Positions 36 through 17,287 of a stretch of DNA of 21,095 bases are shown here, in pieces. The position numbers were made by a program, and so were the translations under genes. Below the pieces are notes generated by a model. That model saw only the letters and a program-made list of their open reading frames with translations. It was not told where the DNA came from and did not search any database. The stretch is from IMG/VR virus record IMGVR_UViG_3300005513_000032, positions 1-21,095 of that record; one strand, 5' to 3'. The stretch is from a virus. Every line of letters begins with the position of its first letter. Within the stretch, counting starts at the first letter, position 1.

Positions 36-616
36 TAGTCGTTTCTCCGAACACAGATAATCAAGGTAATCCGTTCTTCGTCACTGTTATTAGTGACCCA
101 GTGCAGTAGCGAGTTGTCGAACGTATAAATATCGCCAGGCTCCGGGCTGAGGCTTTCATCCTCGAAGCAAAATGCCTGATCCTTGTTCCCTTTGACCTGC
201 ACGGCGAACTTTTCGTAATGCCTCGCGTGCCAGCCAGTATCTATGTGCGGCTTTACCCCGCCACCCGGAGGAATGCGGGTGATGAGTACGCCACCAAGCT
301 GTTTTCCGCCAACTCGGCGCACCACATGACGGGCCAGCGACCACGCGGCAGGAATCTTCCCGATTACGGGATACCAAACTGACGTATGGGCATCGTTGAA
401 GGATTCGCGGTCGCCCTTGAAGTTGGCCCAGTCGTTGTACCGCACCCAAATGTCATCTATCGACTTGTGGGGCGTGTCGTATGCTTCCGTTCGCTGCGTA
501 TGTGTGTTCCACACTTCCGGGTGGTCGGCGATCTGTGAAACAAGCCGGCTCACGTCAAGCCCTGAACCAAGTCTACGAATAGACATGCCTTGCGTCATCG
601 GCTCACAGGTTGTCAT
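35..616 (-). CDS. Aspartyl/asparaginyl beta-hydroxylase-like 2-oxoglutarate/Fe(II) oxygenase
   Basis: The 193-residue product has the metal-binding pattern of the Asp/Asn hydroxylase branch of the cupin-fold oxygenases. HID is at residues 124-126, and a distal His at 172 in SLLHWVTNNS is followed by a basic segment (ERITLIICVR) where 2-oxoglutarate is normally held. Such enzymes hydroxylate protein side chains using Fe(II), oxygen and 2-oxoglutarate; the substrate here is unknown, though a position among tail genes suggests a virion or host protein. It starts inside the 3' end of the preceding gene (14-base overlap). ATGs at codons 7 and 11 are alternative starts. Unlike most neighbours it contains no in-frame TAG. 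Confidence 0.75.
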   Translation of the reverse strand: MTTCEPMTQGMSIRRLGSGLDVSRLVSQIADHPEVWNTHTQRTEAYDTPHKSIDDIWVRYNDWANFKGDRESFNDAHTSVWYPVIGKIPAAWSLARHVVRRVGGKQLGGVLITRIPPGGGVKPHIDTGWHARHYEKFAVQVKGNKDQAFCFEDESLSPEPGDIYTFDNSLLHWVTNNSDEERITLIICVRRND

Positions 617-1085
617 TGATCGTCTTCGGGTTGAACCGTGGCAGCGGGGCGATCTGCGCGGCGCCCGACAAGCTATTGTTCTGCGCTACTTGCGTCTGCG
701 CGTTCACCGTGTCGGTGATGGCAGAAACTTGCTGACCCGCTGCCTGCAGCCCGGTCTGCACGTCAAGCACCTGCGTCTAAGTGTTGGCCGTCTGCGTGAT
801 GACTTGAGGCACGGTTGGCGCATCAATGCCGCCGAGCCGGGTTTCCGCAATTTCCATAAAGAATTTGTACCAAACCGGCATCATGCGGCCAGAATCATCA
901 AGCACGGCAACCTGCGCCCCGGGGAGCCAATTAACCCGTTTGCGAAGGCTGTTCGAACCGGCCCACGTTACCCTTCCGGTGGCTGAGCCAATGCCCGCCA
1001 CTGTGCGGGCTGACGCCGTGAAGGAGATGAATGGCGAGCTGGCACTGGATACGCCAGCGACCGTTGCGCATGATGCCGTTGCCAT
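603..1085 (-). CDS. Tail/virion-associated protein with one in-frame TAG
   Basis: The frame opens at the ATG overlapping the previous TAA (TAATG at 1087-1083) and runs to TGA at 605-603 if TAG at 779-777 (codon 103) is read through, giving 160 residues. The centre (NWLPGAQVAVLDD, MPVWYKFFMEIAETR) looks like small proteins found in phage tail modules. After the TAG the reading continues with polar, Gln/Thr-rich helical sequence (TQVLDVQTGLQAAGQQV) and the motif PLPRFNPKTINDN. This is the only recoded gene here whose first TAG is far from the start. Molecular role not recognised. Confidence 0.65.
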
Positions 1086-1663
1086 TAGTCAGGCAGGCCC
1101 AGTGTCCAACTTCCGATGACGTGTGACCCGGCAGACGGATAGCTCTGCTCGAGAATGGAGGACACTACCAGTGCCGAGCCGCCGCCCGTTGTCACACTGA
1201 TCGGCGCTCCGCCACTGGTAGCGGCCACTTGAAACGTGTCCGTGGTGACGTTTACTGCAAAATAGGTCGTGCCCTCGGTCAGCCCCGTTGGCATCGTGTC
1301 ACCATAGATCACGATAGTGCCATTCGTTGAAAAGCCGTGACCGGGACAGGTGAATACGCCCGTAGTGACGTTGGCGATGAACTCTTTCGGATTGCTTGCG
1401 TTCGGCGCATAGCCGACGTAGGTTGCGCCGTTCCACAATCCAAGCCATTTGACGGTTGTTCCGGCTGGAATAGCAAAAGTCACTGCCGAGGATAGCGTGC
1501 GAACTGCGCCTGAGGATGCACCGAAGGTCGCGGCCATCTTGGCATACGTGCCGCCGGTAACCTCATTGGCTCCGGTGGCTCCGGGGAATGCCGTGTGCGC
1601 ACTGATCTAGGTGATCGTCAGTGCGTTGAGCATGGTGTCTTTTGAGGCGGTGACAAAGCTCAT
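1085..1663 (-). CDS. Virion structural protein (tail fibre Gp80-like?) with one in-frame TAG
   Basis: The start ATG at 1663 overlaps the TGA of the gp10-like gene (ATGA), and the product begins MSFVTASKDTMLNALTIT. Codon 19 is TAG (1609-1607); the reading then continues ISAHTAFPGATGANEV and on to TAA at 1087-1085, 192 residues in total. The N-terminal motif with HTAFPGATGANEV resembles small phage structural proteins annotated as tail fibre or virion proteins. The rest is Gly/Thr/Ser-rich and probably beta-structured. Without suppression only an 18-residue peptide would be made. The family assignment is from memory of the motif. Confidence 0.7.
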
Positions 1664-3072
1664 TTGCTGCTCGCTGTAGCGTCAAGGTTGGCACCGTACA
1701 CCGCGATCTTCACGGGTTCGGTTGTGCGGATGCGGTAGACGCGGCGGCGGGACAATCCAAGGCGCCTAGCCACGCCACGGTTGCGATAGGCGCCAATCTG
1801 GCCTATGCGAACTTCGCGACTGTTACTGAAGTTTCGGCAACCGTCATCCGACCAGTCCAGCATCCATAGAGGATCGGCACCCGGTGTTGGCGGCGTGATC
1901 CCGTCAAGTCCAACGCCCATCTCGGCAATGATTTCAAGCCGGCTATGTCGGAGCCACTTATTCTCGTTCTCGATAACGGCCCACGCCCTCTCACGGGTGA
2001 TCGAATTTCCGTTATCGGTGAAGGCATTCAGGTCCAGCACGTATAGGTTGCCGCTGACGTAATCGCCGAGCACGTGCTGGCCGCCGAGGAACATGTAGGC
2101 GTTTCCGCGGTGCTGTTCCTGTGCGCCCGTGATTGGGTTGCGATAGGTCAGCTGCGTCCAGCGACGCGACGCGGCATCAAACGCCCACGTGGCATACCCA
2201 GGAAACGTCAGCACATAGAGCGTATGCCCGTTCTGCTGGTAGCAGTAGCCCCATGCGCCAGAAACGTCGCCATAGCCCGCGATGGCGTTTTCCAGAGCAT
2301 GCGTGGAGATGCGCGTCGGGCTGTACCCTTGGGCCATATAAACCATGCCGATGCCGCTATCGTTCTGACTGAGCCAAAACACGGTGGAGTCGGACTTGGC
2401 GGGGGAGTATTTGGCCGCGCAGCCATATTCCATGATGGCGGTTCGCACAAAGACGAGATCCTTGTCGCCCGAAGTCTGCGCAATCTCCGTTGTCGTGGTG
2501 TTGAACAGCCACAGCTCGCGGTGATCAGATAGCACCGAAACGATGGGGTCAGGATTAGCCTCGGAACTGGCAAAGTTCAGTGCATCAAGGGTGGTTGCAT
2601 CGCCGATGTTCGTCCAGCCGTAAGTGCCATTCGTGTTGGGGAAGATGATGTAACTGTCTTGATACGTGCCCTGCGCTGTCGTCGGAGCGCCCGTAACCGA
2701 CACATAGGCCAGTGTCGAGAAGGTCAGAACATGCCATCCCGCTGAATGCATGACGGCGAGCTGCGTGTCGTTGTAAACAAGGCTTACACGCCCCGCCCCA
2801 GGAACGGCGCCGATCAGCGTTGAAACGCCAGCCGTCGTGACCTGATATAGCGAAGCACCCGAGACGACCCAGCCAAACCCATTGGCCGTTTCCGCCGCAC
2901 GGATCGGGCCTGTGCCGATGGTGGACAGCAGCCGCAGACCCGGCGCTCCGTAGAACATGCCCTCTTCGGACGACCCCGGAGGCGCGCCCTCAAAAAACAG
3001 GTTGACCAGCGTCTAGCCGGCCAATGGGAGCGATCGCGACTGATAGGCCGCGCCAAGGAAATCAGTCTTCAC
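1660..3072 (-). CDS. P22 gp10-like tail accessory / packaged-DNA stabilisation protein, one in-frame TAG
   Basis: The GTG at 3072 overlaps the preceding TGA (GTGA) and the frame closes at TGA 1662-1660, giving 470 residues with TAG at codon 20 (3015-3013). The N-terminus reads SRSLPLAG-(TAG)-TLVNLFFEG, which fits the gp10-type opening where a Gln followed by a V/I-N-L-Y/F-x-E segment is common; this supports TAG as Gln. In P22, gp10 forms part of the neck that plugs the portal after packaging. The remainder is long and beta-rich (VVSGASLYQVTTAGVSTLIG, DKDLVFVRTAIMEYGC, WAFDAASRRWTQLTY), typical of these proteins. It sits after the adaptor-like gene, as expected. Confidence 0.75.
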
Positions 3073-3719
3073 CGAGCAACCTGCGTCAATCGCGAGCCGC
3101 GCGTGAAGCGCTGGCGCTCGTTGGACAACGCGGCCATCAGACGGCCCGCATATTGAGACTTCCAGAGCGGCAGGCGACCGTCTTCACCGATGAATGGGGC
3201 TGACTCGGCCAGCGCGGCATAGAGCCACACATCCGGATAGCGGTTGAACGCAGCGTTCAGCGTGCCGGAAGAAATGTCGGGCGCCTTCTTGTAATACCGG
3301 CCAGCGATGACCGTGCCATCTGTCATTGTCGGGAAGAACAACAGGTTCAAGCCCTGCTGCGTGTACTTGCGGGCCGATCCGGAGCCGCCGCCCGCCTTGA
3401 GCAAGCGCAACTGGCCTTCTTCGGCGACGTAATCCATCGGGTAATCGCCCGATACCTGCACGCGGATTAGCTCAAGGCAGTCGGTGGGAAGTGGCGCGAC
3501 GTTGCCAGTGGCCGTGATGGCGAGCGGCGCCTCCATTTCGGCACAGCGCAGCGGCGGAAGTACGCTCTGCACGCCGGTCATGCCGTAATAGACAGCCTGC
3601 TCGCCCATGCTGATCAGCAGATCCAGCGTGGACTAGCTCAGGGCGCCAGCATTCGTGTCGTCGCCGTCGATCATCTTCAGCACGGCGGTACGAAAGTCGG
3701 TATAGGTCGTGAAGTTCAT
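3069..3719 (-). CDS. Head-tail adaptor-like protein (SU10/P22 gp4 type), one in-frame TAG
   Basis: The ATG at 3719 overlaps the previous stop as TGATG. The product begins MNFTTYTDFRTAVLKMIDGD, and TAG is codon 29 (3635-3633), followed by STLDLLISMGEQAVYYGMTG. Read through, it is 216 residues ending at TGA, which itself overlaps the next gene's GTG. The N-terminal pattern (YTDFRTAVLKMIDGDD then a helix of the LDLLISMGE type) and later RYYKKAPD and NRYPDVWLYAALAESAPF match phage adaptor proteins that sit between portal and tail. Gene order (capsid, small gene, adaptor, gp10-like) agrees. The exact family name is not certain. Confidence 0.7.
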
Positions 3720-4060: not shown

Positions 4061-5032
4061 TCAGCTCAGGTCAAGAATCGACGCGAGCGGCTTCTCGTCA
4101 CGCACCACCAGCGTGACTTCGGTACGAATCTGCCACTGCTTGGCATCGCCCGTGGTCGCCATCTGCTCCGACTCGAACGGGCGCAACTGACCGAGGGCCA
4201 GCTTGTCCGTGTCGATCAGGTAGGCCGAAGCCGTCAAGCCCAGTCCGCCCGACGCCATCACGCGGTCAGGAACCACCTTCGTGACGCCGAAGTCATGGCC
4301 GTAGAAGGTGAACGCGGTGTTCAGCACCAAGCTGCCATCCGCCTTGCTGGACGGCACGGTCTGCTGCCGGGTCACGTTGCCGGTCAGTGCTGATACCTTC
4401 TACTTCTGCGCCGGAGGAACCAGCAGCATGGTCGAGTCACCACCATTCTGGTACGCGGCCAGCACCGCAGCCTTCACCAGAACGTCGGAGATGGCACGGG
4501 CCGTACCTGCCACCGGAGCCGTGTTGGTGACCGGGTTCGGAGCCACGCCAGCGCCCGCACCCACGCTGGCGTTCAGCGCAATGAAGCCGTACAGGCCGCG
4601 CATCTGGCCTGCAACGCCCGAAGTGCCAGTGACGGCAGCGCCGTTGCCGATGGCTGCCGCCTCGATGTCGCGACGAAGCTCAACCATCTTCTTCGCTTTC
4701 AAGCGATTGATTTCGGACGATCGGCCGTATTTCTTCACCGTCTCGGCGGTGTTGGACACGCTCAAGGTGTCCTGGAAGATCTGCGTGCGGTTGTTCAGCG
4801 GGCCGGGCTGGGTCTGCGCGGCGTAAGCGGCGTCGGCGCCTTCAATCGCAGCATTCGCGGCGTTGGTGGCGCGGTAGCTGTCACGGGTCCACTCGTGGAA
4901 CACGTTCGACACCTTGATGCGGTCGATGGCACTGACCAGCGGGGTGTCCTACGGGTTGAAGTTGTAGATGCGGTCTTCCACATCCTCCGCCACACGGACG
5001 ATGGACGGGGTAATCAGGGTGTTCGCAGTCAT
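4061..5032 (-). CDS. Major capsid protein (SU10/DUF5309-like), two in-frame TAGs
   Basis: The frame runs from ATG 5032 (AAGGA 7-8 bases upstream) to TGA 4063-4061, 323 residues, with TAG at codon 28 (4951-4949) and codon 211 (4402-4400). Key segments are EDVEDRIYNFNP-(TAG)-DTPLVSAIDRIKVSN, FHEWTRDSYR, and VPPAQK-(TAG)-KVSALTGN. The NP-x-DTP and HEW blocks and the PPAQKx block near two-thirds of the length are typical of the DUF5309 HK97-fold capsids. A polar residue such as Gln fits both TAG positions. It follows the scaffold by 9 bases. Without suppression only 27 residues would be made. Confidence 0.85.
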
Positions 5033-5041
5033 GTCTTTTCC

Positions 5042-5968
5042 TTAACCTAGCAAGTTGCCGAGGGATTGAAGGCTCTGTTTCGCATCGAAGCGTTTGAACG
5101 CCTCGGACTTGCTCACAGTCGCCCTGTTGGGTTGGTTTGCCGCCGATGGCTTAGCCACCCTTGGCAGTTGCGCAACGGGCTTGAGCGCGGCTGTTTTAGC
5201 CTGCAACTCGTCGTAGGCTTTTGCCTTAGCGGCAATCTCCCACAAGCCTTTCTGCACATAACCGATGTCTGCGGTCTTGGGGCTGATGCCAGCCTTGCCA
5301 AGATATGCCGCCAGATCGTCGATTGTTTTCTCACCAAAACCCGGCAGGGTGTCCTTCAGCGCCTTCTCGGTAGCATCGGCTTGCTGAGCAATCCACGCTT
5401 GGCGTTGCCGCTGCGTTTCCTGCTGAACATTCGCGATGGCCTCATGTGCTGCGTTCAACTGGCCCTTGCGTGTTTCGTATTGCTCCTTCTGTGCGATGTA
5501 CAGCCCCACGTCCTGTGAGGCCAATTCAACAGACGGTGGTGCGCCGATCTGCGATTCCGCAAACTTGGCGAACGCGTTCAGACGGTCAAGGGTCGCCGTC
5601 AACGCCCTTTCATTGTGCTGGCGGTATTCGTCGGCCTGTGCCTGCAGCGCCTCGACGTGCCTGCGCTCCTCCGCGACAGCCATCGTTTTCTGCGAGTAGT
5701 CGAAGCCCTTCTGAGCCAGCTCGATAACCTCGGACTTCTTGAGCGGAACGTCCTTGCCATCATGCTTAAGCACAATGGTGGCATCGTCGCCCTTGTCGCC
5801 CTCGGCCTATTCCTGACCCTCTTCGGTTTCCTCCCGCTCCTCGGCTTCCTCGCCTTCCTATTCCTGCTCAAGCTCCGGCTCAGCTTCCTGATCCGCGCCG
5901 TCCATCAGACCAGCCAGACCCGAAAGCGTATCGCCCTCGGCTGGCTGCATTTCTGCGTCACCTGCCAT
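5042..5968 (-). CDS. Scaffolding protein, two in-frame TAGs
   Basis: The start is ATG 5968 with GAGG about 8-9 bases upstream; the stop is TAA 5044-5042, 308 residues. TAGs at codon 37 (5860-5858) and codon 54 (5809-5807) lie in a very acidic N-terminus (ELEQE-(TAG)-EGEEAEEREE and EEGQE-(TAG)-AEGDK), where Gln alternates with Glu. The middle is a long charged coiled coil (AEERRHVEALQAQADEYR, NVQQETQRQRQAWIAQQ) and the C-terminus is basic (SEAFKRFDAKQSLQ), as expected of an internal scaffold that contacts capsid. Its position directly before the capsid gene supports the assignment; no sequence match was tested. Confidence 0.8.
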
Positions 5969-6340: not shown

Positions 6341-6618
6341 CGCCGAAACACTCCCTTGAACCGTTCAGCGCGTGATTGCTCAGCCTCGATGGCCTTGCTC
6401 TGCATCTTGCCGGTGATCATCGTCTGTTCCAGCACGTCACCAAGCCGTTTATGGCACTGGATCATGCGCCAGAGGTGATCGCGCTTCGCCTCGTCCGCTT
6501 CGATCTGCCAGCGAGCCAGGATTTCATCCTTGAGCTGCGCCATCGTCTCGATATAGACGCGGTTTGACAGTACATCGGCGGCGAGTTGACCGCGTTCAAG
6601 CTCTTCCTATGGGGTCAT
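6337..6618 (-). CDS. Small helical protein between portal and scaffold, TAG at codon 4
   Basis: Translation begins MTP-(TAG)-EELERGQLAADVLSNRV and then continues MAQLKDEILARWQIEADE. The ATG at 6618 overlaps the portal TGA (ATGA) and the stop TGA overlaps the next ATG, so the 93-residue frame with TAG as sense fits exactly between its neighbours. A later in-frame Met (6543) would give 68 residues, but it lacks the overlapping junction and drops sequence that continues the same amphipathic helix. The protein is highly charged and predicted helical; no known function. With TAG at codon 4 termination would leave a tripeptide. Confidence 0.7.
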
Positions 6619-8846
6619 TCATTCTCGCCCTATTGTTCGCCCTTCGTGGCGGCCTGCAATTCGGCAATCTGCTGCTGCAACTGCGCAATCTGCTCGTTCT
6701 GCTGAGCGTCGATGTCCTTGTGCGCCATATCGTGCGCGGTGGCGACGCCGTGAATATGCGTGTCGTGCGCTTTGCGCTGAACATCAGCGGCCTTGACCCC
6801 GATATTTCCCTGATCGGCCTGCGCCTTGACTCCGAGTGAGGCCATCGCATGCTGGTGTTTCTGATCCGCCTCACGCGCCCGCTGCTGCAATTCCATCTGC
6901 TTGAGGTACGTGTCCGACTGCTGCTGCGCGCTCATCTGCTTGAGCTGGCCGTTTTCTTGACCGAGTTGTTCCAGCTGCTGCTTGGTCTGCGCCATTTCCT
7001 GCTGTTGCTGCTGTTGCTGAGCCTGATACGCCTGCGGGTTCGGCGGCATACCTGACGGCTGCGGACTAACGAAGCGTTCCGGTTCCTTGAACTCGGCGGC
7101 CTGCACGTACAGTTTGACGGTTTCGGCCACCTGAGCTGGCGTGACGATGCCGAACGGGGCAGCTTGCATCTGCACCTGCATCAGGCCCATGACGCGCGCG
7201 GCAAGTTGTTCCTTGCTGCCCGTTCCCAAGCCGACCTTGATCGTAGTGTTGAACTGGTCTTTCCACTCGGACGGATTCACAGCGACCCACGACCCGTTGA
7301 CCTGCATCTGTTCGGTCTTGTCCTGGAACTGGATCGCCAGCTTCAGCATCTTGCTGAAAAGCCCCTTCATGCCGACCGCGAACATGCGCGACATCAGCTC
7401 AAGGCGCATGTCTGCCTTTTGCGTGATGATGCTGACGCCGGTCGCGGTCTTGTTTAGCGAGTTGGCGTCGGTGCCCTGCGAATAGCGCGTGAAGCCGGTG
7501 CGGTTCTCTTTCCATCCCTCAAGCCATTCGTTGAACTCGTAGGCGGGAGCGCCGAGAGCGGGCTGTACGATGGGCTGAATGGCGGTGTTGGCCGGACCGT
7601 GGCCGCGCACCGCGCCACCAGGCCGATTCTCCAGCCAGTCGTCCATGTTCACGCCAGCATCCAGGTTGATGTAGGTCCGCTGATTGACGGACAGCATCAT
7701 ATTGTCTTGGATAGCGCGGATGACGTTGGTGCGCAGCTTCTGTGGCTGCAACGCCATGTCGGCAGGGCAGTCGCCGAAGAACGCATGCGGACGAGGAATG
7801 GGGCATATCCACACGAACGGATGGCCGTCGCACTTTTCGTACTCGACCAGCTTCTGCTCGATCATGTGGCAGCACAGCCATTCGGCAATGCCGTCGCCGT
7901 CCGCGTCCAGCTTGATATAGACCTCGCTGCACTGATACAGCTTGTGGCTTTCGTGCGGCTCAACAGCCGTGTAGTCGCTGTTCAGGCCAAGCTAGGCAAG
8001 CGTTTCGCTGTCGTAGCGCGAGTTGCTGCCGGCCTGCCCGATGTCGGTCAGGTCGTAACCCTCTTCCTCTAGCTCAAACTTTCGCTTCGGGTAGACGTGG
8101 GCAATCATCGCCGGATCGTCACCCCAGCGCGCATTCGCATCCACGCGCACTTCGTGAGGGGCGCATGCGGCCACCTTCACCGCCATGCGTTTATCTTCCT
8201 TCTTGAGCGATACCGTCAGCGTCGGTGCGGCGGGCTGCTGCGGTAGCGGCTGTCCATCCGGGCCATACTGCGCTGGCATGGTCTGTGACGGCTCAACCTG
8301 AGGTTCGTCGTCAAGCTCCCAGCCCGACTACTGAAGCATCGCCACCTGCTCCTGCGTGATGCCGGAATAGGTAGTTTGCAGATCCTCGAATTCCTCCTCG
8401 GCCCACACCTTGACGAAGCCGACCTTCTGGATCAGTGAATCCTTGAACCAGTCGTACATGATGCCTACACCGTCGTTGCGGGTGTAGAACAGGTAATTAA
8501 CGTAAGCCGTGGCGAGCTGGGCAACCTGATCCTGATCGGGTCGGCGCGCCTGGAACTCGACCGCCTCGTCATCCGTCACAAACGGCTTCATGATCTGCGG
8601 CAACATCGCCTCGATCGTGTCAGCCACGTCGGTCGCTACGAAATCGCTGCGGTCGTCAATCTCTGGCGGGGCTAGTTCGCCAGTAGCTTCGGCGTTGTAA
8701 TATTCAAGGTTGCGAAGACGCTGCTAGGCAATCTCGGTGCCCGGACCGCCCATGCTGTTTTCCAGCGCCATGCGGCAGGCAAGCTCGACCTCAGCATCCG
8801 TCATCTTGGCGTGCTTGATTGACGCCTTCTTGGACGTGTATGCCAT
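6615..8846 (-). CDS. P22-like portal protein, four in-frame TAGs
   Basis: The start ATG overlaps the terminase TAA (TAATG at 8848-8844) and the true stop is TGA 6617-6615, giving 743 residues. TAGs are codons 41 (8726-8724), 173 (8330-8328), 285 (7994-7992) and 739 (6632-6630); all lie in one frame. Family signals are DDRSDFVATDVADTIEAMLP, YDWFKDSLIQKVGFVKVWAE, EVYIKLDADGDGIAEWL, NVIRAIQDNMMLSVNQ and GVSIITQKADMRLELMSRMF, all typical of podovirus P22-type portals that form the dodecameric DNA gate. The C-terminus is a Gln-rich coiled coil. Read with the standard code this gene falls into several pieces. Confidence 0.9.
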
Positions 8847-10096
8847 TAGCGGGTAAGCCTGCGGTAGCTGATTGGTTGCATATCTTCGTTAACCATCTTG
8901 GGCGCCACACTTGCCATGTAGCGGAACATATCGGCGCCGTGACTCCACTCGTCGTGGACGGGTGCGCCAGGCTCGCCCGTTGAAACAGGAACGCCGCGCT
9001 TGTACCGCTTGAGGCACTGAATCAGCCGCTCGCACTTGAGCTTGTCGATGTAGAGCTGGCCGAACGCCATGCGTGCCGCCTTAATGCCTGTCTCGACCGG
9101 CTGAATCGGAACGATTCCCACATCCCAGCCAAGCTCGCGCATGATCTGCTCGGCACTCTTGCCGGTCTTGTAGTCACCGTGGGCGCCGTCGTGAGGTAGC
9201 CAGAGACGGCCCCAGTTGAGGTTCTTCTGTTTCAGCTCAGCCGAACACCAGTCGAGCGTCTTGTGGTCAACCTCGATGTACTTGATCAGCCGAAGCGACG
9301 AGATATGCCGCTGGCATAGGCCAATCGCCATCTTGTCGTTCCAGCCCAAGTCGAAAATGACGTGAACCTTGAGCGCCGGGTCATACGGGAATAGGCCAAT
9401 GCGCCCCTCTTCCTGCGCCCTGGCAATCTCGTCAGCGTAGATCGCGCCAGTCACGGCAGGCTTGCAGCGTCCTTCCCATATGTTGTCGTAGTCAGCCCTT
9501 GGTGTCGTGGCGAGCGCGTGTTGCCGCTCAGCCTCAAGCACATCAGGGAACCACGGGTTGTCCGCGTAATTGATCTGCACCACCACGGAATCAGGGGGCG
9601 GATTCTCGATGAAACGGACGTAGGTTTCGTCGGTGTCCAGCTCGGGGTTTAGCGTGATGGTGATTCGCGACCCGTCTTTGCGGATCGTCGGGATAAGAAT
9701 GTCCCACGATCGTTTGCTGATCGCCTGGGCTTCCTCGGCCCAAACGTCATCAACACCCTCGAACGACTTGATCGACTCGGCGGTCTGGTCGCTTAGGCCG
9801 GAAAATAGAAACTCGGTTCCGTTCGCGCCCTTGATGATGTTCTGCTGGACTTCGTAGAACGCGCCAAGGCCCATGGATTGAATCTGGTCACTCAGGAGCT
9901 TGTGCACGGAATCGCGGATGGACTTCTGCACCTCGCGAGTGCACAGAAATCGTCTTTTCGACTAAGCGCCCCGGATCAGGTAGGAGCGAGCAACACCCCA
10001 CGACTTAGCACCACCGCGGCCACCATGCAGGATCGTGTATCGCTGTGGGCCAAACAAGCACTGCAGCTTGGCGGGGAACTCAATCTGGCTTGACAA
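8846..10096 (-). CDS. terL: Terminase large subunit, one in-frame TAG
   Basis: The 416-residue frame runs from TTG 10096, inside the end of the small subunit gene, to TAA 8848-8846. Walker A is GGRGGAKS (residues 25-32), and the Walker-B-like segment is DDVWAEEAQA followed by ITITLNPE. The nuclease half shows VIFDLGWNDKMAIGL and the late acidic motif HDEWSHGADMFRYM. TAG is codon 45 (9964-9962), between SYLIRGA and SKRRFLCTREVQKSIRDSV, so the ATPase P-loop and the rest of the enzyme can only be joined by reading through it. The TTG start is chosen because an in-frame TGA lies two codons upstream and no better start precedes the P-loop. Confidence 0.9.
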
Positions 10097-10346
10097 AGGT
10101 CACCGTCAGGCTGGTCTTGAGTGGGTTGTCAGGATCGCCAGACACCGTCATCGGCAGAACCTTGCCAACCAGCGTAAGGAACGCGTTCGGGTTGGTCTGC
10201 GCCTAGGTCAGCAGATACTTGGCTCCGCCCGCCTTGTCGAGTGCCGTCAGGATCATGGCCTTTACGTCAGCCGTCACCTTATTCGGTACGCCTTTTGGCC
10301 TACCCTTGCCTGCATTTCCCCTATTCGCGCCTACTTTGGGTTCCAC
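10080..10346 (-). CDS. terS: Small terminase / DUF5681-like packaging protein, one in-frame TAG
   Basis: GTG 10346 is preceded by GAGGAAA at a good spacing; an in-frame TAA lies seven codons further up, so this start is favoured. The 88-residue product has a basic N-terminus with GKGRPKGVPNK (AT-hook-like, DNA-binding) and a helical C-terminal half reading AKYLLT-(TAG)-AQTNPNAFLTLVGKVLP. I recall proteins with the pattern YLxxQAxxNPxAFLxLxGKVLP upstream of large terminases; Gln is the usual residue at the TAG position (codon 48, 10205-10203). It overlaps the large subunit gene by 17 bases. It is shorter than most small terminases, so the name rests mainly on position. Confidence 0.7.
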
Positions 10347-10421
10347 GGACTTTCCTCGGGCTGCTTACGCGTCACCCATCATTGCTACGGATGCTTCTAT
10401 CTCAGACCACGGTATGTGGCT

Positions 10422-10592
10422 TCAGTCATCGTCTTCACTGTTGGCGGGGGCGGACGGAATCGAACCGTCATAAGGCGGGTTAGAGCCGCTGTCAGCACCC
10501 AAGCGCGCCCCACTAAAGATCGCATCCCAATGGCTGGCAAATGTCGCCTGGTCCACGCTGAACGGGCGTGGCGCTGATCCCTTACCGTTCAT
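10422..10592 (-). CDS. Small phage protein whose 3' half contains the suppressor tRNA
   Basis: ATG 10592 to TGA 10424-10422 encodes 56 residues: MNGKGSAPRPFSVDQATF, ASHWDAIFSG, then a low-complexity tail ending NSEDDD. The first ~28 residues strongly resemble a family of short phage proteins starting M-x-GKGSAPRP-F/Y-S-V and ending with a FD/WD-xIFG motif, normally soon followed by the stop. Here the frame continues through the whole tRNA-like sequence (10442-10512), which codes for ARLGADSGSNPPYDGSIPSA. The start overlaps the preceding small gene by 11 bases. Function unknown. If the tRNA is processed out, this message must be destroyed. Confidence 0.65.
   Translation of the reverse strand: MNGKGSAPRPFSVDQATFASHWDAIFSGARLGADSGSNPPYDGSIPSAPANSEDDD
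10442..10512 (-). tRNA. Putative amber-suppressor tRNA, anticodon CUA, Gln-like
   Basis: Read on the minus strand from 10512. Acceptor 5' strand TGGGGCG pairs at six of seven positions with CGCCCCC (10452-10446), with a U1-C72 mismatch. The discriminator is G and CCA is encoded (10444-10442). The T-arm is perfect: GACGG, loop TTCGATT, CCGTC. The anticodon loop is CTCTAAC with U33, CUA at 10483-10481 and A37, on a stem with four Watson-Crick pairs plus an A-C. G73, G2-C71 and G3-C70 are glutamine identity features in E. coli. Oddity: only 15 bases lie between acceptor and anticodon stem, and no clean D-stem is visible. It could fail a strict tRNA model. Confidence 0.7.
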
Positions 10593-10701
10593 ACGGCTTC
10601 GGCACAGTCGGCTTAACCGGATTCGTCGTCTTGACCTTGTACGTCAGCCAGCTATAGGCGCAGACGATGGCGAGGAGGAGTAGCAGGGCGATGGCGATCA
10701 T
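10582..10701 (-). CDS. 39-residue single-span membrane protein
   Basis: ATG 10701 overlaps the Rz1 TGA (ATGA), and the frame ends at TAA 10584-10582. The product is MIAIALLLLLAIVCAYSWL followed by TYKVKTTNPVKPTVPKPYER: one N-terminal hydrophobic span and a basic, proline-rich tail. Coupled start, hydrophobic span and position directly after the spanin pair suggest a lysis-associated protein, perhaps a second holin or antiholin; this is inference. Confidence 0.55.
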   Translation of the reverse strand: MIAIALLLLLAIVCAYSWLTYKVKTTNPVKPTVPKPYER

Positions 10702-10970
10702 GGCTGCAGCCCCTTTATCCTTGCCAGCTTGTCGTTTGAAGCGCCTAGGCATGCCTTGAGATGTATCGCGTACTCGACCAGTGAGCCGTTCGTCAGCTCG
10801 CTAGGCAACGCAACCGTGCAAACCTTTACTAGCTCGGCAGGCAAGGCAACGTAGACCGGAACCTTGACCTCGACCGTCTCAGTCCTGATTGCCGGTTTCG
10901 CGCAAGCGGCCAGCGACAACAGCAGGGACGCGAGTATTAGCCCACGCTTTGACAGTCGGCTCGCGCTCAT
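10698..10970 (-). CDS. Rz1: o-spanin, Rz1-like outer-membrane lipoprotein
   Basis: The 90-residue product begins MSASRLSKRGLILASLLLS and has lipobox LAAC (Cys23), predicting signal peptidase II cleavage and an outer-membrane lipoprotein. The gene starts inside Rz in another frame (92-base overlap), the usual nested or overlapping spanin arrangement. The periplasmic part is longer than lambda Rz1 (VEVKVPVYVALPAELVKVC and on) and less proline-rich. With Rz it is expected to fuse inner and outer membranes in the last step of lysis of a Gram-negative host. Confidence 0.8.
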   Translation of the reverse strand: MSASRLSKRGLILASLLLSLAACAKPAIRTETVEVKVPVYVALPAELVKVCTVALPSELTNGSLVEYAIHLKACLGASNDKLARIKGLQP

Positions 10971-16990: not shown

Positions 16991-17287
16991 CTATTTCGTG
17001 CAAGCCATCCTTGAAAACCTTGCACTATCTTTGTTGCCATCACTGGCAAGGTAATAGACGTTCCTCCGACTCACTCCGAGTCGCTCCGCCGTAACATCCG
17101 GCCCCAGCGTCGGCAGCAACTTCGCCGCCTCAATAGCTTTGCGGTCACGGTTTGCGCCCTCGTCAATGGCTATCATGTTATTTATGGTTTCCGCGCTGAA
17201 CTTCTCGCAGCGAGCAACTGACCAGCCGCAATCGTGCAGCAGCTCGGCCAGCTCACCCAACTTCGCATGTGCGGCTTGGCTAATCAT
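16991..17287 (-). CDS. Helix-turn-helix protein ending at TAG
   Basis: The 98-residue product begins MISQAAHAKLGELAELLHDC. Near residues 66-82 it has a helix-turn-helix-like segment (VTAERLGVSRRNVYYLASD), suggesting DNA binding. Start ATG 17287 has AAGGGGTG overlapping the preceding stop. The only stop is TAG at 16993-16991. This is the only gene in the window that appears to end in TAG; if UAG were sense here the reading would continue into the small basic protein downstream for 167 residues in total. Because that gene has its own ribosome-binding site, I take TAG as the stop. Confidence 0.6.
   Translation of the reverse strand: MISQAAHAKLGELAELLHDCGWSVARCEKFSAETINNMIAIDEGANRDRKAIEAAKLLPTLGPDVTAERLGVSRRNVYYLASDGNKDSARFSRMACTK

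Follow-up and report, generated by a model that had tools for sequence, protein, structure and literature searches.

A putative amber suppressor tRNA with glutamine identity marks, nested in frame in a small gene, heads a TAG-recoded phage late module

Reading of TAG as glutamine (code 15) has been described in gut phages that include the crAss-like phages, the Lak megaphages, and phAss-1, where suppression was proposed to time the expression of late genes (PMC9523058, PMC10607447, PMC11210395). The phage family analyzed here resembles them in its in-frame TAG codons within structural genes, its suppressor tRNA with a CUA anticodon, and glutamine at UAG. The debate over late-gene timing by phage recoding rests mainly on gut phages that lack a tractable host. 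For laboratory suppressors, glutamine was inserted by every amber tRNA-Asn suppressor whose 1-72 pair had been weakened, amber tRNA-Ser was turned glutamine-specific through acceptor pairs 1-72 and 3-70, and glutamine was accepted by amber tRNA-Trp and amber tRNA-fMet (reviewed in PMC9976931).

The analyzed DNA (hereafter the window) is a stretch of 21,095 nucleotides from the IMG/VR virus record IMGVR_UViG_3300005513_000032, and its tRNA comes from a soil phage. Over its first 20,096 bases, the window matches a section of a 41-kb contig (L001) exactly. A first-pass annotation, made from the sequence alone, had proposed a CUA-anticodon tRNA of glutamine type at the edge of a recoded module. 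ARAGORN called a single tRNA in the window, with a CTA anticodon and with exactly the boundaries that this annotation had given.

10442..10512, minus strand: putative amber suppressor tRNA, CUA anticodon, 71 nt including the encoded CCA, 15-nt D region, open 1:72, G73 (ARAGORN, covariation with three other short-D tRNAs, and the wider family)

It reads U GGGGCG, CGCUUGGGUGCUGAC, AGCGG CUCUAAC CCGCC, UUAU, GACGG UUCGAUU CCGUC, CGCCCC C G CCA. The perfect T-arm, encoded CCA, six acceptor pairs, CUCUAAC loop, and G73 listed by the annotation were all present, and the G2-C71, G3-C70, and G73 that it had likened to determinants of glutaminyl-tRNA synthetase (GlnRS) were confirmed in the sequence. 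The 15-nt D region and the U1.C72 and A27.C43 mismatches were also found as described; the description of the short D region and U1.C72 as departures from the norm did not hold, as both recur as family features. The Rfam tRNA model (RF00005) did not recognize this copy, which stayed below the gathering threshold and did not reach E = 1, probably because of the D arm. An Rfam scan of the window gave chance matches only.

TerL searches of viral and bacterial contigs yielded 157 distinct TerL loci, 25 of which carry a CUA tRNA upstream of TerL. As the tRNA bodies align badly by sequence, they were located with ARAGORN (21 loci) and pattern searches (L003, L012, and L025), with one more recognized by eye (L314). 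The short-D form, with a D region of 15-16 nt and the common pattern CGC-nnn-GGTGCT, was found in four divergent phages (the window, L012, L025, and L314), and a pattern scan of viral contigs revealed nothing beyond these four known contigs. A Dyella sp. SG609 contig of 432,598 bases matches L025 without a difference over 21,200 bases, so that a short-D version is present in a Dyella prophage. Among the four, 97.2% of 18 stem pairs were kept and six pairs were altered on both sides; neither the paired percentage nor the covariation score was matched by any of 500 shuffles. The D arm of this form is cut down to two G-C pairs, and because these are invariant no covariation can be shown there. 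Similarly, nine tRNAs of 74-75 nt kept 100% of 17 counted pairs, with 14 altered on both sides. RF00005 was passed by the suppressors of L003, L004, L007, L013, L029, L250, and L255 (42-57 bits), and its threshold was missed by those of L012 and L025. As judged by sequence comparison, the tRNA is beyond chance, given the CTA tRNAs upstream of TerL in relatives and the covariation in the stems.

The Rfam result, the nearly absent D arm, and the A27.C43 mismatch are what would be expected of a degenerate copy that no longer functions and leaves the work to another suppressor. However, this was the only CTA tRNA that ARAGORN found in the window (the scan did not span the whole of the 41-kb relative), the short-D form recurs with compensatory changes in three other divergent phages, and it is the copy found in L025 and L012, both of which have many TAGs. 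A degenerate tRNA is hence considered very unlikely. The short-D form escapes Rfam in the window and is missed by ARAGORN as well in two relatives; recoding phages that seemingly lack a suppressor may therefore have one.

At this one position, close relatives have unlike tRNA bodies (glutamine-like, tryptophan-like, serine-like, and short-D; 71 to 106 nt), and the frame is preserved. For example, in relatives whose TerL is 93-94% identical to that of the window, the flanks align and the tRNA differs in form: the window has the 71-nt short-D form, L002/L004 and L007 have two unlike 75-nt forms, and L003 has a 106-nt serine-like form. L250 and L255 also have unlike tRNAs, with nearly identical flanking protein sequence. 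It is inferred from these comparisons that bodies may have been replaced in place between close relatives. The D arm in L010, compared by eye, is that of Dyella tRNA-Trp, and the anticodon arm in L013 closely resembles its counterpart in Dyella tRNA-Gln(CUG). Close relatives of the window also have further tRNA pairs (Thr and Ser, or Ser and Ser) located upstream of their suppressor (L004 6740-6907, L005 1273-1440, and L007 1100-1277).

Downstream of the tRNA, on the same strand, is a P22-like structural module, which places the tRNA at the edge of the recoded genes as proposed. Each of the eight genes examined, beginning with TerL, has at least one TAG in frame, and the total is 13. A further ORF precedes TerL.

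10080..10346, minus strand: ORF before TerL, placed like a small terminase subunit (by position only); one TAG
8846..10096, minus strand: terminase large subunit (TerL; PHROG); one TAG, codon 45
6615..8846, minus strand: portal protein (PHROG); four TAGs, codons 41, 173, 285, and 739
5042..5968, minus strand: head scaffolding protein (PHROG); two TAGs, codons 37 and 54
4061..5032, minus strand: major head protein (capsid; PHROG); two TAGs, codons 28 and 211
3069..3719, minus strand: virion structural protein (PHROG); TAG at codon 29
1660..3072, minus strand: head closure protein (PHROG); TAG at codon 20
1085..1663, minus strand: late-module gene of no known function, with homologues in four loci of the first set; TAG at codon 19
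603..1085, minus strand: late-module gene of no known function and no PHROG match; TAG at codon 103

The TAGs are in frame, and homologues align across them with homologous residues on either side, which bears out the claim that these genes are interrupted by the codon. A gene on the minus strand at 35-616, which adjoins the recoded module, has weak similarity to 2OG-Fe(II) oxygenases and no TAG. Among the genes upstream of the tRNA (lysis and DNA metabolism), we took no TAG for a sense codon. Two upstream ORFs hold a TAG, one at codon 4, probably reflecting a wrong start, and the other at 16991-16993, which we read as a real stop. An early gene of 98 aa (16991-17287, minus strand) appears to end at this second TAG, which could also be a sense codon in this phage; its product would be 68 aa longer after read-through.

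Among the 157 TerL loci, heavy use of TAG inside the late genes TerL and portal was observed only where a CTA tRNA was present. For example, TerL and portal contain six and eight TAGs in L025, and two and three in L012. L021-L024 carry a CTA tRNA upstream of TerL, yet have no TAG in TerL or portal; in L022 and L023, where the capsid gene is covered, one TAG was found near the capsid start (MCP alignment column 16), shared with other groups. A single TAG near the TerL or portal start, with no CTA tRNA seen, was present in L200, L204, L220, L262, L305, L321, and L325-L327, and we read these as upstream stops or wrong starts, without a case-by-case assessment. In the TerL tree, the recoded phages formed four clusters, and at least two changes were forced by well-supported branches; L314, unlabelled as recoded in this tree, sits apart there.

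The TAGs were concentrated near gene starts. In the window, eight of 13 fell within the first 60 codons. A distribution like that of the other glutamine codons would place 1.7 there, and none of 20,000 permutations reached the observed number. Early TAGs were also observed in 16 recoded relatives (16 of 16 portal genes and 13 of 14 capsid genes); related genomes are not independent, and only the test on the window itself is free of the kinship problem. In the 41-kb relative G002, TAG occurred in all nine downstream same-strand ORFs (28 in total) and in three of 11 upstream, a contrast drawn from a rough greedy ORF tiling of full records that was used for this purpose only. Upstream same-strand ORFs of other records also contain TAGs (e.g., 21 in G004 and 27 in G006), many of which may be tiling errors, and a strict late-only rule is therefore not shown for the whole family. 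With most TAGs no more than 60 codons from the gene start, translation of the virion proteins would terminate early until the suppressor accumulates.

When TAG columns were compared with homologues, glutamine had the highest log-odds in all 12 groups scored, including those with tryptophan-like bodies (+52.6, 29 sites) and serine-like bodies (+5.0 over two sites in L003 and +5.6 over six sites in L261). The signal was weaker for the window phage (glutamine +9.3, followed by glutamate at -1.6; 11 sites), and none of its 11 UAG sites was in an invariant glutamine column. Columns 61 and 279 of the TerL alignment had glutamine in 79 of 79 non-TAG rows. The decoding of UAG and the glutamine type suggested by the first-pass annotation both found comparative support, with suppression and charging themselves inferred. 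The phage appears to qualify as code 15, in that TAG is read as a residue inside conserved genes, the residue is glutamine as judged from homologues in the absence of proteomics, and a CUA tRNA is encoded.

ARAGORN labels the tRNA as 'Pyl', which implies that pyrrolysine, or some other amino acid, would be inserted at UAG. The anticodon is CUA, and the compact D region is like that of tRNA-Pyl in length. Against this, glutamine ranked first in every group, and in the Dyella host, the host of one relative only, no PylRS exceeded the cut-off (best match 22.9 bits, against 178.15). Insertion of an amino acid other than glutamine is scarcely credible on this evidence, and the label, which reflects the CTA anticodon only, was rejected.

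The sequence marks of a GlnRS substrate were all met in the window tRNA: a weak or open 1:72, G2-C71, G3-C70, G73, and U35. Of 18 listed bodies, all have an open 1:72 pair, G2-C71, and G73, and 16 have G3-C70. The open 1:72 together with G2-C71, G73, and U35 would make the tRNA a GlnRS substrate whatever the body, and the GlnRS of the host would charge it with glutamine, so that UAG in the late structural genes would be read as glutamine. The Dyella host has a GlnRS (690 bits), and the loop of its tRNA-Gln(CUG), CUCUGAC, is one base off CUCUAAC. No CTA tRNA was among the Dyella tRNA genes read (release factor 1 was outside the search), and the late part of the prophage held 56 TAGs by rough tiling. 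Two adjoining, low-scoring tRNA-like genes without CCA were seen in the Dyella genome (L165; Dyella C10:113700-114200).

An open 1:72 pair disfavours EF-Tu binding, and its presence in all 18 listed bodies is shared with bacterial initiators. The tRNA could accordingly be initiator-like, formylated and starting translation at UAG instead of elongating through it; the clustering of TAGs near gene starts would fit, as would the acceptance of glutamine by amber tRNA-fMet and the listing of a 1-72 mismatch as a formylation element (PMC9976931). The TAGs, however, fall within conserved coding sequence, where homologous residues flank them to the left and right, and some are deep in genes (portal codons 173, 285, and 739). 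In addition, initiator tRNAs carry three G-C pairs in the anticodon stem (G29-C41, G30-C40, and G31-C39), which are absent in the window (AGCGG/CCGCC) and in most bodies, with the exception of L010. An initiator role is thus highly improbable, and an elongator charged with glutamine remains the preferred reading.

The tRNA is nested within a chain of overlapping small ORFs.

10698..10970, minus strand: Rz1-like lysis gene, upstream, without TAG (Pfam PF23793)
10582..10701, minus strand: short membrane-protein-like ORF (MIAIALLLLLAIVCAYSW...), overlapping the start of the tRNA-bearing ORF (called from its frame)
10422..10592, minus strand: small ORF of 56 aa, MNGKGSAPRPFSVDQATFASHWDAIFS...SEDDD, holding the whole tRNA in frame (N-terminal motif in relatives, dN/dS)
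10379..10429, minus strand: tiny ORF MTEATYRGLRQKHPQQ with two TAG codons, its start overlapping the stop of the tRNA-bearing ORF (lower part of the frame 10379-10540)

A PHROGs search left the small ORF without a name. Its N-terminal motif recurs in each of the 25 recoded loci, weakly so in L021-L023 and L314, and four non-recoded relatives have it without the tRNA. In 21 of the recoded loci, the motif continues in frame into the tRNA. In L021-L023, the tRNA occupies a different open frame, which has a similar C-terminal motif, and the L314 frame begins at the tRNA itself and reads on into the C-terminal motif. Over 20 codons of the small ORF in the clade of the window, dN (NG86) was 0.03-0.21 and dS 0.47-1.17. 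In 10 of 13 lineages tested, the stop codon of an upstream ORF (at least 30 codons long) is only a few bases from the small-ORF start, a stop/start overlap or contact at this point occurs in other lineages too, and overlaps like that of the tiny ORF were found downstream of the tRNA in L003, L007, L010, and L016. The closeness of stop and start suggests translational coupling, which is predicted from the arrangement of the genes alone.

The nesting by itself may be an accident, in which a dispensable tail received the tRNA and the open frame is without function. The tails of the non-recoded relatives are unrelated, so the tail tolerates change, and in most of these tRNAs two of the three frames are open. 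As the conserved EDDD tail shares sequence with the start codon of the next ORF, it is not independent evidence for the frame and was discounted as such. In contrast, the through-running frame is open in 18 of 18 listed bodies. For the 15 counted as independent, the chance of this is (2/3)^11 x (1/3)^4 = 1.4e-4, assuming equally likely phases and TAG as sense. About ten unlike bodies, 71 to 106 nt in length, restore the frame between conserved flanks, and L314, with a different start, still runs in frame into the C-terminal motif. Accidental nesting is hence possible, though we doubt it.

The tRNA gene has no room for its own promoter, and no promoter-like site was found between 9900 and 11500, a weak test. 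Together with the gene overlaps, this suggests that the tRNA derives from the late transcript. Nested in frame in a small gene that is part of an overlapping operon, it should be cut from the transcript that also carries the recoded genes. The reading we strongly favor is that the suppressor is charged by GlnRS, is made from the late transcript, and gates the virion genes. The tRNA, the sense use of TAG, the glutamine residue, the nesting, and the early TAGs come from sequence comparison; charging, tRNA maturation, suppression, co-transcription, and late-gene gating are inferred, with no data on expression, charging, or the proteome behind them. The small gene of many lineages also contains a UAG, either within the tRNA or beyond it, and would thus need its own tRNA product to be completed. 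A further possibility, which we offer only tentatively, is that the same late RNA serves as message and tRNA: ribosomes would cross the tRNA as a linker of the small protein, coupling the next genes, RNase P would yield the suppressor, and the two fates, being mutually exclusive, would form a switch. No precedent for an in-frame tRNA inside a phage gene was found in the literature searched, which included few subscription journals and did not cover the main 2022 paper on recoded phages.

Compared with the gut code-15 phages, the present family is small (about 40 kb) and P22-like, and the tRNA heads the late module in a compact layout with TAG early in the genes. At least one member, unlike the gut phages, is a prophage of a gammaproteobacterium, and since this relative resides in a sequenced isolate, Dyella sp. 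SG609, the idea of late-gene timing is directly testable. Suppressors associated with theta ribozymes (PMC10879173) are likewise phage suppressors that need excision from longer transcripts. In contrast to that system, the window has no match to a self-cleaving ribozyme family in Rfam (coverage of theta by its models was unconfirmed), and the present tRNA has coding sequence on both flanks. In phAss-1, one suppressor has an open U1.C72, two others have a weak A-U pair at 1:72, and G73 is common to them all, so that an open or weak 1:72 with G73 is not unique to the present family; the phAss-1 suppressors are located between annotated genes or in a tRNA array, whereas those of the present family are inside a gene. 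Among laboratory suppressors, supE (tRNA-Gln) is a CUA suppressor that inserts glutamine. Similarly, su7 (tRNA-Trp), amber tRNA-Asn, and tRNA-Ser show that varied CUA bodies take glutamine once 1:72 and its neighboring pairs are right (PMC9976931). The present family appears to hold the same solution in nature, with several bodies within one phage family, and its contrasting tRNA bodies around a fixed glutamine-identity core would constitute a natural version of the classic suppressor-identity experiments.
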